Source: a virus
Reading direction: 5' to 3' (one strand)
Virus record (IMG/VR): IMGVR_UViG_3300032050_000798
Location: 1 to 24,272 of that record
Length of the DNA stretch: 24,272 nucleotides
Positions 19,501 to 24,272 of this stretch are shown here, piece by piece. Under the pieces are notes generated by a model. That model made no database searches. It worked only from the letters and a program-made list of their open reading frames with translations, and was not told the origin of the DNA. How positions within the stretch are numbered: the first letter of the stretch is position 1; each line of letters starts with the position of its first letter. The position numbers were made by a program, and so were the translations under genes.

Positions 19501-20262
19501 ATGAAAATTGTACTAGTAACAGGTGGATTCGACCCCATACATTCAGGGCACATTGCCTATTTTAACGCAGCCAAACAGTTAGGAGATATTCTAATTGTTG
19601 GCGTTAACAGCGACAAATGGTTAGAACGCAAAAAAAGCAGGGCATTTATGCCATGGCATGAACGTGCTACAATCATCGATAATCTTAAAATGGTGGATTT
19701 TGTCTACGAATTTTACGATGATGACGGATCTAGTATAGATGCAATTAAGAGAGTTAGGGAAGCATATCCCGATGCAAAAATCATTTTTGCTAATGGGGGC
19801 GATCGTACTAAAGATAATATACCAGAGATGGCTTTCGAAGATGCCAATTTGGAATTTGTTTTTGGTATCGGGGGTGAAGATAAACGTAATTCGTCTAGTT
19901 GGATATTAGAAGAATGGAAGGCACCTAAGACATCTCGCGCATGGGGGTATTACCGGATTCTGCACACTTGCGGCCCAGGAGTAAAACTTAAAGAACTCAC
20001 TGTGGCACCTAAGACTTGTTTAAGTATGCAACGTCACGAAAAACGTGCAGAATTTTGGTTTGTGGCTGAAGGGCAAGCAGCAGTATATACATTGGATTCA
20101 AGCACAGATCATGATTTAAAATGTAGTTTAGTGGCCCATCAAAGTACATTTATTGATACCAATGAATGGCATATGCTATGCAACGAAACAGATCAGCCAT
20201 TAAAGCTTATTGAAATTCAATACGGCGAAAATTGTATTGAAGAAGACATCGAAAGAAAATAA
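19501..20262 (+). CDS. Cytidylyltransferase-type nucleotidyltransferase fused to a cupin
   Basis: The product is 253 aa. The N-terminal domain (1-140) has the nucleotidyltransferase signature GGFDPIHSGH (HxGH at 14-17), the WHERATII segment, and KRNSSSW in place of the usual C-terminal signature. Such domains join a nucleotide to a phosphorylated small molecule (glycerol-phosphate or sugar-phosphate types). The C-terminal domain (about 147-250) is a small cupin of the mannose-6-phosphate isomerase type: RAWGYYRILHTCGPGVKLKELTVAPKTCLSMQRHEKRAEFWFVAEGQA, with H179 and E184 as probable metal ligands. The fusion suggests activated-sugar chemistry, perhaps for surface glycan modification. It follows the previous gene after 8 bases and faces three tiny genes on the other strand. 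Confidence 0.85.
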   Translation: MKIVLVTGGFDPIHSGHIAYFNAAKQLGDILIVGVNSDKWLERKKSRAFMPWHERATIIDNLKMVDFVYEFYDDDGSSIDAIKRVREAYPDAKIIFANGGDRTKDNIPEMAFEDANLEFVFGIGGEDKRNSSSWILEEWKAPKTSRAWGYYRILHTCGPGVKLKELTVAPKTCLSMQRHEKRAEFWFVAEGQAAVYTLDSSTDHDLKCSLVAHQSTFIDTNEWHMLCNETDQPLKLIEIQYGENCIEEDIERK

Positions 20263-21916: not shown

Positions 21917-21945
21917 TTGACATTAATTCCTGATTAGTATATAAT
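21917..21945 (+). promoter_or_regulatory. Perfect-consensus sigma-70 promoter for the tRNA block
   Basis: TTGACA (21917-21922), 17 bases, TATAAT (21940-21945). The predicted start is at about 21952, just before the first tRNA at 21955. Confidence 0.9.
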
Positions 21946-22828: not shown

Positions 22829-23080
22829 TTTCAACAGTGTAAAAAGGTGGAAACGAGGTCCACGCTACACACTCTAAAAAGTAGCAAACGGGCGTACTGA
22901 AGCATAAAACCCATGGCGATAACATGGGGAGTCAGAATCAGGTCAGGGTATTGACCCTGTCATATCCTGCGGAAACGCAGGGTATTCTAAAACATACTAC
23001 ATGCACAATTGGGTAGACATGGTGTTCGCTGAGTTGAAAGATTCAGAAAGATACTTTGGTAGTATGTTTTAGAATACCTT
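22829..23080 (+). ncRNA. Candidate structured RNA A
   Basis: No convincing gene fills this stretch, but it is dense in hairpins. GTGG/CCAC encloses an AAACGAG-containing loop (about 22847-22864). GCTAC/GTAGC is at 22864-22868 with 22881-22885. CCCATG/CATGGG is at 22910-22915 with 22923-22928. CAGGGT/ACCCTG is at 22944-22949 with 22954-22959. A GAAA-capped stem TATCCTGCG/CGCAGGGTA ends at 22984. Last is a perfect 20-bp inverted repeat, 22981-23000 with 23059-23078. The final repeat shares bases with the GAAA stem, so the two compete. Motifs GAAACGAG and TAACATGGG recur in structured RNA B. A 23-codon frame (MHNWVDMVFAELKDSERYFG...) starts at 23001 in the last loop, so a coding role is not excluded. 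Confidence 0.5.
22981..23078. repeat. Perfect 20-bp inverted repeat with 58-base loop
   Basis: GGTATTCTAAAACATACTAC (22981-23000) is the exact reverse complement of 23059-23078. The 58-base loop opens with an ATG at 23001. Confidence 0.95.
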
Positions 23081-23147
23081 TGGATGAAAACAACAGTGTC
23101 TCCTTAGAAGAGCCTGTGTTAAACTAGATTTTAACCACCAAAAGTAT

Positions 23148-23176
23148 TTGACAATTATATATGTTGAATGTATACT
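23148..23176 (+). promoter_or_regulatory. Sigma-70 promoter for the second tRNA group
   Basis: TTGACA (23148-23153), 17 bases, TATACT (23171-23176). The predicted start, near 23183, rules out a frame start at 23148 and supports ATG 23199 for the next gene. Confidence 0.85.
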
Positions 23177-23198: not shown

Positions 23199-23378
23199 AT
23201 GAAAACAACTTCGACGTTCAAACTTAATAAAACTGTGAAAACAATGTTGGCAACAGGTCGATTTCGATCACAGGAAGATCGTAATGGATTTAAACGTGCA
23301 ATGATTGATGCACAAGTCAGCGGCGAAATGCAATCTAAAAATTCACAGAAACGTTCTAAGAACAGTGAACAAGAGTAA
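23199..23378 (+). CDS. Small basic protein, 59 aa
   Basis: It begins MKTTSTFKLNKTVKTMLATG, continues with RFRSQEDRNGFKRAMIDAQ and ends in a polar Ser/Lys/Asn/Gln tail. AGGA (23187-23190) lies 8 bases before the ATG, and the promoter ends at 23176, so this start is secure. The core TFKL....K..LA.....R..FKRAMI.A. resembles small proteins I recall from marine T4-like phages; function unknown. It heads a transcript that continues into tRNA-Asn, tRNA-Leu(TAG), tRNA-Gly and the omega homologue. Confidence 0.65.
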   Translation: MKTTSTFKLNKTVKTMLATGRFRSQEDRNGFKRAMIDAQVSGEMQSKNSQKRSKNSEQE

Positions 23379-23387
23379 ATAATATAT

Positions 23388-23464
23388 TCCCCGATAGCAC
23401 AGTTGGTAGATGCGTCTGACTGTTAATCAGAATGTCCGTGGTTCGAGCCCACGTCGGGGAGCCA
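23388..23464 (+). tRNA. tRNA-Asn (GTT)
   Basis: The 77-base gene includes encoded CCA. Acceptor TCCCCGA/TCGGGGA, anticodon stem TCTGA/TCAGA with loop CTGTTAA, T arm CGTGG...CCACG, discriminator G as expected for Asn. Confidence 0.97.
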
Positions 23465-23473
23465 GATTTTAAT

Positions 23474-23550
23474 GCCCCGGTGACGGAATTGGTATACGTG
23501 TTGGTCTTAGAAGCCAAATTTTAGGAGTTCGAGTCTCCTCTGGGGCACCA
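23474..23550 (+). tRNA. tRNA-Leu (TAG) with short variable loop
   Basis: The 77-base gene includes encoded CCA. Acceptor GCCCCGG/CTGGGGC, a 3-bp D stem ACG/CGT of the Leu kind, anticodon stem TTGGT/GCCAA with loop CTTAGAA, T arm AGGAG...CTCCT and discriminator A. Only 5 bases (ATTTT) lie between anticodon and T stems, whereas bacterial tRNA-Leu normally has a long class II arm. Confidence 0.9.
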
Positions 23551-23575: not shown

Positions 23576-23649
23576 GCGGGGTTCGTATAGTGGTAATACC
23601 TTAGCCTTCCAAGCTAAAGCGAGGAGTTCGATTCTCCTACCCCGCTCCA
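23576..23649 (+). tRNA. tRNA-Gly (TCC)
   Basis: The 74-base gene includes encoded CCA. Acceptor GCGGGGT/ACCCCGC, anticodon stem TTAGC/GCTAA with loop CTTCCAA, T arm GAGGAG...CTCCT, discriminator T as usual for Gly. Confidence 0.97.
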
Positions 23650-23671: not shown

Positions 23672-23896
23672 ATGAAAAATTTAGAATCTCGTAGTTCGTT
23701 GGTTGACACTGATAAATGTGTAGAGAACATCGGTAGCAGATTTGATTTGGTTTTAGTGGCCAGTGCAAGAAGTCGTGAGATTTCTAGGCGTAACAAGTCT
23801 AGTAATCAACTACAGCACAGGCACCCAAACATCTCTGCTCTATTAGATGTGCAAGAAGGTCGAGTAGGACGAGAATACTTGAAAAAAGTTAATTGA
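23672..23896 (+). CDS. RNA polymerase omega subunit homologue
   Basis: The product is 74 aa. Residues 11-38 ([28 protein letters not shown]) match the conserved core of bacterial omega (E. coli: [25 protein letters not shown]). [17 protein letters not shown] (54-70) matches the second conserved block (E. coli: VIALREIEEGLINNQIL). In the host enzyme omega clamps the beta-prime C-terminal region and supports assembly, and it affects ppGpp response and sigma choice. The linker ([15 protein letters not shown]) is basic where host omegas often have acidic residues. It follows tRNA-Gly by 22 bases without a strong ribosome site. It could substitute for host omega to retune the polymerase. Homology is confident; the effect on transcription is inference. 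Confidence 0.85.
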   Translation: [74 protein letters not shown]

Positions 23897-24178
23897 ATAA
23901 CCCGGTTTACTCTTTGCCGTAAATAAAAGAGCGTCCCTGAAACGAGAGAACAGGGGGTACACTAGGACTTGACCTTACGGTCCCGCTAACATGGGATACC
24001 GAAAACAATCTAGGGTGTGGTCTAACGCCATCCCATAAGAATAAATGTTACGGACAGAGTAACAGCTCAGTTCAGGGCTTTTGTGGTGAAAGTGGCTGAA
24101 CAATTTTATAAGTGTATAACACACCCTGCCGATAAGACAGGCTCTGTTTGTGAAAATGTTGTATGCTTATAAAATTGA
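23897..24178 (+). ncRNA. Candidate structured RNA B
   Basis: There is no coding frame of note. Hairpins: CCCTG/CAGGG (23935-23939 with 23951-23955) enclosing an AAACGAG loop; GACC/GGTC (23971-23974 with 23979-23982); ATGGGAT/ATCCCAT (23991-23997 with 24030-24036) enclosing GGTGT/ACGCC; GTTAC/GTAAC (24047-24051 with 24059-24063); GTTCAG/CTGAAC (24070-24075 with 24096-24101). Last is a 21-bp helix 24101-24121 with 24157-24177 (12 perfect pairs, then 9 with three G-T), capped by a 35-base loop containing CCTG/CAGG. It shares GAAACGAG and TAACATGGG, in the same order, with structured RNA A. Its 3' end abuts the last tRNA, so it may be cut out during tRNA processing. Confidence 0.5.
24101..24177. 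repeat. Inverted repeat, 12 perfect pairs extendable to 21
   Basis: CAATTTTATAAG (24101-24112) is the exact complement of 24166-24177. The helix continues inward with G-T pairs to 24121/24157. Confidence 0.9.
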
Positions 24179-24254
24179 TGCGGAGTGTTAGAAGAGGTAT
24201 CTGGCAAGGCTCATAACCTTGAGGTCGGTGGTTCGAATCCACCCTCCGCTACCA
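24179..24254 (+). tRNA. tRNA with CAT anticodon, initiator-like (fMet)
   Basis: The 76-base gene includes encoded CCA. Acceptor pairs 2-7 are GCGGAG/CTCCGC, but position 1 (T) faces T at 72, so the end pair is unpaired, the hallmark of bacterial initiator tRNA (usually C1-A72). Anticodon stem CAAGG/CCTTG with loop CTCATAA has two of the three initiator G-C pairs. The GGTCGG-TGG-TTCGAATCC stretch resembles bacterial tRNA-fMet. The D arm is short and partly G-T paired. Initiator function is inferred. Confidence 0.8.
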
Positions 24255-24272
24255 CAATTTGCGTTCTTAGCT

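Follow-up and report, generated by a model that had tools for sequence, protein, structure and literature searches.

The window analysed in this study, a linear virus record of 24,272 bases, contains towards its end a tRNA array in which a small gene resembling rpoZ, the gene for the omega subunit of RNA polymerase, is embedded. The features of this locus are, with the source of each call in brackets:

23148..23176, + strand: sigma-70 promoter-like site, TTGACA-17-TATACT, 11 of 12 matches (promoter scan)
23199..23378, + strand: small ORF following this promoter-like site, candidate gene only (ORF list)
23388..23464, + strand: tRNA-Asn(gtt) (tRNA search)
23474..23550, + strand: tRNA-Leu(tag) (tRNA search)
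23576..23649, + strand: tRNA-Gly(tcc), ending 22 bases before the omega start (tRNA search)
23672..23896, + strand: phage omega (rpoZ-like) gene, 74 amino acids, ATG start, TGA stop (curated profiles, phmmer, selection)
23672..23692, + strand: N-terminal extension of seven residues beyond the E. coli start (ungapped alignment, motif count)
23693..23707, + strand: codons 8-12, S S L V D compared with M A R V T at residues 1-5 of E. coli omega (ungapped alignment)
23705..23863, + strand: core matched by the TIGR00690 rpoZ profile (profile match)
23858..23887, + strand: ten-residue C-terminal signature, residues 63-72 (alignment, motif count)
23897..24124, + strand: conserved structured non-coding RNA directly after the omega stop, ends chosen and not mapped (covariation, covariance model)
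24179..24254, + strand: tRNA-Met(cat) (tRNA search)

The promoter-like site at 23148 is followed by the small ORF, of which homologues occur in 26 omega loci (window copy counted), by three tRNAs and then by omega. The original prediction had placed the gene in a tRNA block with strong promoters, and such a block is indeed present. Six tRNAs lie between 21,955 and 24,254, and four sigma-70-like sites of the + strand, at 21917, 22242, 22416 and 23148, match at 11 or 12 of 12 positions; the scan returned 18 sites with at least nine matches against a shuffle mean of 13.5 and, like all such scans, is no evidence of function. The site at 23148 also occurs in two related loci (L005, L007), is identical in two others (L001, L003) and is absent from the aligned stretch of a fifth (L006). 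No terminator-like site was found on the + strand ahead of omega in the window scan. Omega may be co-transcribed with the tRNAs and be made early. Its start, on the other hand, lacks a good Shine-Dalgarno sequence.

As judged from its sequence and predicted fold, this ORF encodes a bona fide omega of RNA polymerase. The protein passes the cut-offs of two curated models, TIGR00690 rpoZ (29.3 bits, cut-off 23.6, E 6.7e-7, omega residues 12-64) and the Pfam family RNA_pol_Rpb6 (PF01192; 27.9 bits, cut-off 26, residues 15-64). The predicted coordinates were right, and the profile search returned omega as anticipated. The conserved omega blocks recognised in the original prediction, including RFDLVLVA, reappear in a phmmer search against the PDB, in which 21 distinct omegas top the list (best E 1.3e-6) and residues 13-70 are aligned, a similarity well outside what chance would give. 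The PHROGs collection yielded no family for this protein. A profile built from 82 distinct phage omegas found its best PDB omega with an E of 7.8e-17, while the first protein other than an omega, estrogen receptor beta, followed at E 0.0015. An AlphaFold model of the window omega reached a pLDDT of 88.5 and a pTM of 0.76, and all 50 Foldseek matches listed for it were chains of RNA polymerase complexes or RpoZ; against solved structures the probability was 1.00 with E no better than 7e-3, the protein being small. The VIA Z of up to 8.1 over 67 residues is middling by the tool's own note. When nine further viral omegas were compared with TIGR00690, six exceeded the cut-off (L026, L093, L023, L159, L161, L030), two stayed under it (L008, L036) and one (L088) gave no match; for the eight members of the phage clade beyond the window this amounts to five over, two under and L088 without a match. 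Pairwise dN/dS values among phage omega relatives lay between 0.03 and 0.15 in 20 of 21 scored pairs, the remaining pair, with two changes in all, having 0.28; these pairs are hand-picked close relatives and non-independent, with one pair of unequal length skipped. Given the curated matches, the predicted fold and the low dN/dS, the omega gene is real and maintained under purifying selection.

The record in which this gene lies has a clear phage character. A PHROGs scan of ten window ORFs gave, among its matches, a tail tube protein, a terminase large subunit, an ssDNA-binding protein and a UvsX-like recombinase. The nearest isolates of the terminase are Pseudomonas jumbo phages of the PA5oct kind (57% identity), and the recombinase has its best isolate match in the Agrobacterium phage Atu_ph07 (69.5%), with CBB and GAP32 reaching about 70% over slightly less. 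Taking both proteins together, the nearest isolates are the jumbo myoviruses PA5oct, Phosso, Atu_ph07 and CBB, for which reason the label "T4-like" given in the original prediction appears too narrow. Matches to the window terminase were present in eight of the 30 omega-carrying virus records searched and absent from the other 22, which are perhaps fragments or other phages; the four largest of the matching carriers measure 367, 356, 353 and 191 kb and share 61-66% identity. As the terminase and recombinase have jumbo kin and large carriers hold a matching terminase, the window is probably a piece of a jumbo-type genome. A further ORF of the window (19501-20262, + strand) resembles a heptose 1-phosphate adenylyltransferase in its N-terminal part and has homologues in 14 omega loci.

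Omegas of this kind are not confined to one record. Three other IMG/VR records (L001-L003) encode exactly the same protein, and a first scan of IMG/VR retrieved 46 omega loci. A second scan with an alignment yielded 187 viral relatives, the best 80 of which were kept, so that the later counts refer to 103 partly redundant loci and 82 distinct proteins. Since VGREYLKK and block-1 peptides served as scan patterns, the search passed over omegas that have neither of them. An equivalent scan of 84,980 prokaryote genomes gave 12 relatives, none of them with VGREYL. In its core blocks, its predicted fold and its length the phage omega corresponds to bacterial omega (rpoZ, TIGR00690 / PF01192), the best-scoring examples of which come from Pseudomonadota, but it differs from it by its VGREYLKK-type end. 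In a tree of 68 columns, 57 phage omegas were separated from 33 bacterial ones by a single branch (100/99, recovered in 200 of 200 bootstrap trees), and this split also holds without the N-terminal columns. The bacterial rows of this tree are the best-scoring ones, from Pseudomonadota and one "Bacterium MnTg04", so that other phyla are hardly sampled, and the root was not inferred. The phage omegas constitute a true, phage-specific offshoot of an established protein family.

A phylogeny with host omegas had originally been proposed as a way to the donor lineage. It did recover a separate phage clade but did not single out a donor, as AU p-values of 0.24-0.29 were obtained for the phage clade joining beta-, gamma- or alpha-type omegas, labels which are a reading of sequence type, and none of the three placements was rejected with these short sequences. 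The VGxExLKKV end that the phage omegas share with betaproteobacterial-type ones may be taken as a donor hint, though only as a lead. Searches with betaproteobacterial-type and gammaproteobacterial-type omega queries returned one and two viral loci, respectively. Of the latter, L161 is another tRNA-array phage omega, and L160, 93% identical to the gamma-type query and with no tRNA found, looks like host sequence. The beta-type omega (L159:3893-4231) falls inside the beta group (98/90), with no tRNA found; its contig carries a tail sheath protein 36% identical to that of the window and, adjoining, a likely homing endonuclease according to an ORF reading. Here a different phage has apparently acquired a betaproteobacterial-type omega on its own. 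Since this omega is of beta-type and lies on a contig with a tail sheath, uptake of omega by phages seems to have happened on two or more occasions.

The phage omega profile found no omega in ten isolate phages; the controls which confirmed that the search works were bacterial (6/6 genomes; 288/299) and not phage. A tblastn search of the isolate-phage collection hit five records, two of them named Acinetobacter phage MD-2021a (E 4e-5; CAKLQH020000003.1 and CAKLQF020000004.1) and three at E 0.8-0.9 without annotation, one of which has just 1571 bases. The MD-2021a omega was rejected as a phage gene, as the record that was opened, the first of the two, contains gmk-rpoZ-spoT along with pilus and bacterioferritin genes and is bacterial chromosome. 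This example demonstrates that omegas in collections of phage sequences can be contamination, and the same might be asked of the window, which could be a mis-binned or chimeric contig bearing a bacterial gene. That possibility is practically negligible: the window has a terminase, a UvsX-like recombinase, a tail tube and an ssDNA-binding protein, the same locus recurs in several records, neither gmk nor spoT was recognised by eye among the window ORFs, and the phage clade stands apart from the bacterial omegas compared. Whereas the bacterial rpoZ of the MD-2021a record lies between gmk and spoT, the phage omegas form their own clade and lie in tRNA arrays.

The association with tRNAs extends well beyond the window. 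A tRNA is present within 3 kb in 98 of 103 omega loci, and 77 of them have four or more. In 61 of the 101 loci with more than 100 bases upstream, omega begins at most 70 bases after a tRNA on the same strand (gaps computed before six omega start sites were revised), as it does in the window, where it follows tRNA-Gly. Irrespective of side, a tRNA stands no more than 70 bases away from 79 of 97 omega genes, compared with 502 of 1603 other ORFs; this comparison relies on mechanically called ORFs and on loci that are in part redundant, and six of the 103 loci were dropped from it, five of them without any tRNA. As the adjacent tRNAs differ from locus to locus (Gly, Met, Asn, Pro, Leu, Arg, Ile and others), the common feature is the tRNA array and not one particular tRNA. 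Recurrent protein neighbours, each cluster being annotated via one representative, include a phosphoesterase of calcineurin-like type, present in 45 of 82 omega groups, and a possible dual-specificity phosphatase that stays under the Pfam cut-off, present in 44. A DUF2828/DUF7788-type phage RNA-binding protein recurs in 27 groups and an AAA_33 / polynucleotide-kinase-like protein in 22.

A further component of the array is the RNA of about 230 nt directly downstream of omega, which in the light of its covariation is an undescribed, strongly covarying structured RNA. No ORF of at least 40 amino acids follows the omega stop on the + strand, and Rfam 15 gave no match to this stretch at the gathering threshold; with a relaxed threshold just an opposite-strand RNase P fragment of 13.7 bits, touching 24128-24272, appeared. 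Homologues were found in 45 loci, the window copy (L047) counted; where a locus extends at least 4 kb to either side of omega, 28 of 53 have the RNA. Copies lie, for example, at L079:4385-4614, L161:7203-7430 and L017:8775-9002. In an alignment of 30 sequences, 21 of 25 predicted pairs change on both sides, and 96.2% of the alignment cells pair, compared with 79.0% in shuffles and 37-52% in slid versions. The covariation score came to 0.554, compared with 0.235 for shuffles; the number of pair types was less striking, as 4 of 500 shuffles reached it. Predicting the structure on the alignment that was also used for scoring works in its favour, though the lead over the shuffles is wide. On its own, the stretch 23905-24178 folds with a z of only -2.5. 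A covariance model detected the RNA in 38 of 87 sources (27 model members and 11 new ones, two of them weak), in all cases on the omega strand, and with stricter filters in two of eight large carriers and none of ten isolates. As its distance from omega varies from -6.4 to +3.5 kb, the RNA is a component of the tRNA array and is not tied to omega alone. A second unusually stable fold lies at 22830-23100 (+ strand; z -6.6, 0 of 200 shuffles as low), with a long hairpin at about 22980-23080, and is conserved mainly in close relatives.

Which polymerase the phage omega serves is indicated by what its carriers encode. Some jumbo phages encode their own polymerase (excerpts of PMC7824862), and omega could accordingly be a subunit of a phage-encoded multi-subunit enzyme. 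However, the beta-prime domain PF04997 was absent from eight carrier records of 121-367 kb, whereas all 14 controls matched. A very divergent beta-prime or incomplete records could account for this result, yet we consider a phage-encoded polymerase very unlikely. With no PF04997 in the carriers and every control positive, the partner of the phage omega is most likely the host RNA polymerase core, on which it would likely replace the host omega. A comparable case is phage-encoded bS21, likewise a small subunit of a host machine found on large phages and thought to replace the host copy (excerpts of PMC9723584); bS21 serves the ribosome and omega the polymerase, so that the two are compared in the way they work, with no homology claimed.

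Phage omegas have been named automatically before, as two proteins of uncultured Caudovirales phages, A0A6J5T227 (73 aa, 30%) and A0A6J7WH19 (72 aa, 39%; identities from Foldseek rows), which have a similar predicted fold, carry the UniProt name "DNA-directed RNA polymerase". A description of a phage-encoded omega or of omega replacement by phages was not found in the open-licence literature, in line with the original prediction that such replacement is little described; this is a weak absence, the Greek letter being unsearchable. The available excerpts of PMC12753301 and PMC10134851 deal with host rpoZ, those of PMC12619734 state that the authors found no RNA polymerase homologues in an aquatic lineage, and in those of PMC7824862 the terms "omega", "rpoZ" and "Rpb6" do not occur.

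A possible reason for such a replacement is offered by the N-terminus. The alarmone ppGpp binds at site 1 on the omega/beta-prime interface, where omega residues 2-5 are among the contacts (excerpts of PMC7676912). With omega lacking these residues, ppGpp binding was at background, while RNA polymerase with the same deletion plus three beta-prime substitutions bound ppGpp just about twofold worse; in E. coli transcription the effect of site 1 is much smaller than that of site 2 (excerpts of PMC7676912). In an ungapped alignment the window omega does not have the M-A-R-type N-terminus but S-L-V-D at positions 2-5, with Leu at 3 and Asp at 5. Arg occupies position 3 in 20 of the 82 distinct phage omegas but in 38 of 39 scored bacterial ones, and position 5 is Asp in 49 of the 82 phage omegas but Thr in 38 of the 39 bacterial ones. 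An acidic residue at position 3 or 5 is present in 53 of 82 phage omegas and in none of the scored bacterial ones (39 of 41 were scored, and the other two both begin with MAR). Eight phage omegas have an in-register M[ASP]R start as in E. coli. The N-terminal states cluster on the tree, requiring nine steps for position 3 and six for position 5, and in the supported set around the window (97/91) position 5 is acidic in 24 of 28 rows. The window sub-clade deviates from bacterial omega by both an extension and a changed ppGpp stretch. Residues 6-7 of the extension are the Ser-Arg of a motif, SR-x(3-4)-[IVL]-[DN], found in 43 of 82 distinct phage omegas; with a 3-residue insertion in the alignment, this Ser-Arg could take the place of Ala2-Arg3.

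The loss of ppGpp-contacting residues, suggested for inspection in the original prediction, is consequently seen in the window omega under the ungapped alignment but not throughout the family, and a loss of site 1 is plausible for the window omega. As the 20 proteins with Arg3 and the eight with an in-register start retain bacterial features, escape from ppGpp is unlikely to have been the founding role of phage omega. Genes with a potential link to ppGpp are present in some carriers: RelA/SpoT-like HD proteins over the cut-off occur in two of 16 carrier records (G004, G021) and a DksA/TraR-type zinc finger in two others (G026, G027). Isolates without a detected omega also possess such genes (HD_4 in W02 over the cut-off and in four below it, the zinc finger in W01 and W06), so these genes do not track omega, and their support for a connection to ppGpp is circumstantial. 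The HD proteins of L017 (14131-14694) and L169 (G021) have YIVHP and LHDVVEDT motifs and are possible small alarmone hydrolases, the former scoring 79 bits with TIGR00691, far under the cut-off of that long model.

The pattern of conservation permits another explanation, namely that the phage omega is mainly an assembly or stability factor which helps beta-prime to fold and holds the core, its N-terminal changes being drift after release from ppGpp signalling; a phage of large size would require a greater amount of active polymerase, to which additional omega would contribute. Omega has been described as a beta-prime chaperone (excerpts of PMC5811629), and the alignment columns that never or hardly vary fall in the core blocks and at the C-terminus instead of the N-terminus. 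In addition, a weakly supported branch (85/79) has five of the seven in-register M-x-R rows of the tree (L022, L023, L026, L039, L094; not L029 and L103) on its bacterial side. Drift fits poorly, however, with the retention of the extension motif in about half of the proteins and of an acidic position 5 in nearly all rows around the window, and hosts presumably already have enough omega. We regard this explanation as possible but doubtful.

The C-terminus invites a different idea, in which the VGREYLKK end and the extension offer a phage activator or sigma factor a phage-specific surface on which to dock on the host polymerase. Of the 82 distinct phage omegas, 38 have VGREYL[KR]K exactly, as against none of 41 bacterial ones, the relatives from the genome scan included, a frequency that is inflated by recruitment because VGREYLKK was also a search pattern. 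GafA of RcGTA activates by binding the host omega (excerpts of PMC9638019), so that a virus-like element also works through this subunit, although RcGTA uses the omega of its host and the phages studied here bring their own. "Group 2" jumbo phages likely use their own sigma factors on the host polymerase (excerpts of PMC7824862). Yet betaproteobacterial-type omegas have the similar VGxExLKKV end and the bacterial L136 has VGREVL, and no partner gene has been identified; an adaptor of this sort appears rather unlikely.

We therefore return to replacement of the host omega. That the gene encodes a functional omega of a jumbo-type phage, made early with the tRNAs and replacing the host omega on the host core, is in our view fairly probable. 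The phage omega would be made early from a host sigma-70 promoter together with the phage tRNAs, would bind host beta-prime and would displace the host omega on the host core. In the window sub-clade, SSLVD in place of MARVT together with the extension would then spoil ppGpp site 1 at the omega/beta-prime interface, and the polymerase marked in this way would go on reading strong promoters of the tRNA type as ppGpp rises in the starving host. We propose this sparing of tRNA-type promoters through the changed N-terminus only tentatively, and the wider notion that a widespread phage omega lineage renders the host polymerase ppGpp-blind at site 1, letting phage tRNA and early promoters escape stringent control, is speculative. 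The roles offered in the original prediction, a block of ppGpp signalling, stabilisation of a reprogrammed polymerase or a preference for the phage late sigma factor, are in the same way hypothetical.

To redirect the host polymerase, phages are known to use inhibitors, sigma factors and enzymes that modify it, and the exchange of a core subunit would be a route unlike any of these. If the proposal is true, it would represent a viral counter to the stringent response through subunit exchange and a physical link between phage tRNA arrays and transcription control. The natural omega variants with and without the ppGpp motif are, moreover, material for probing omega and site 1.
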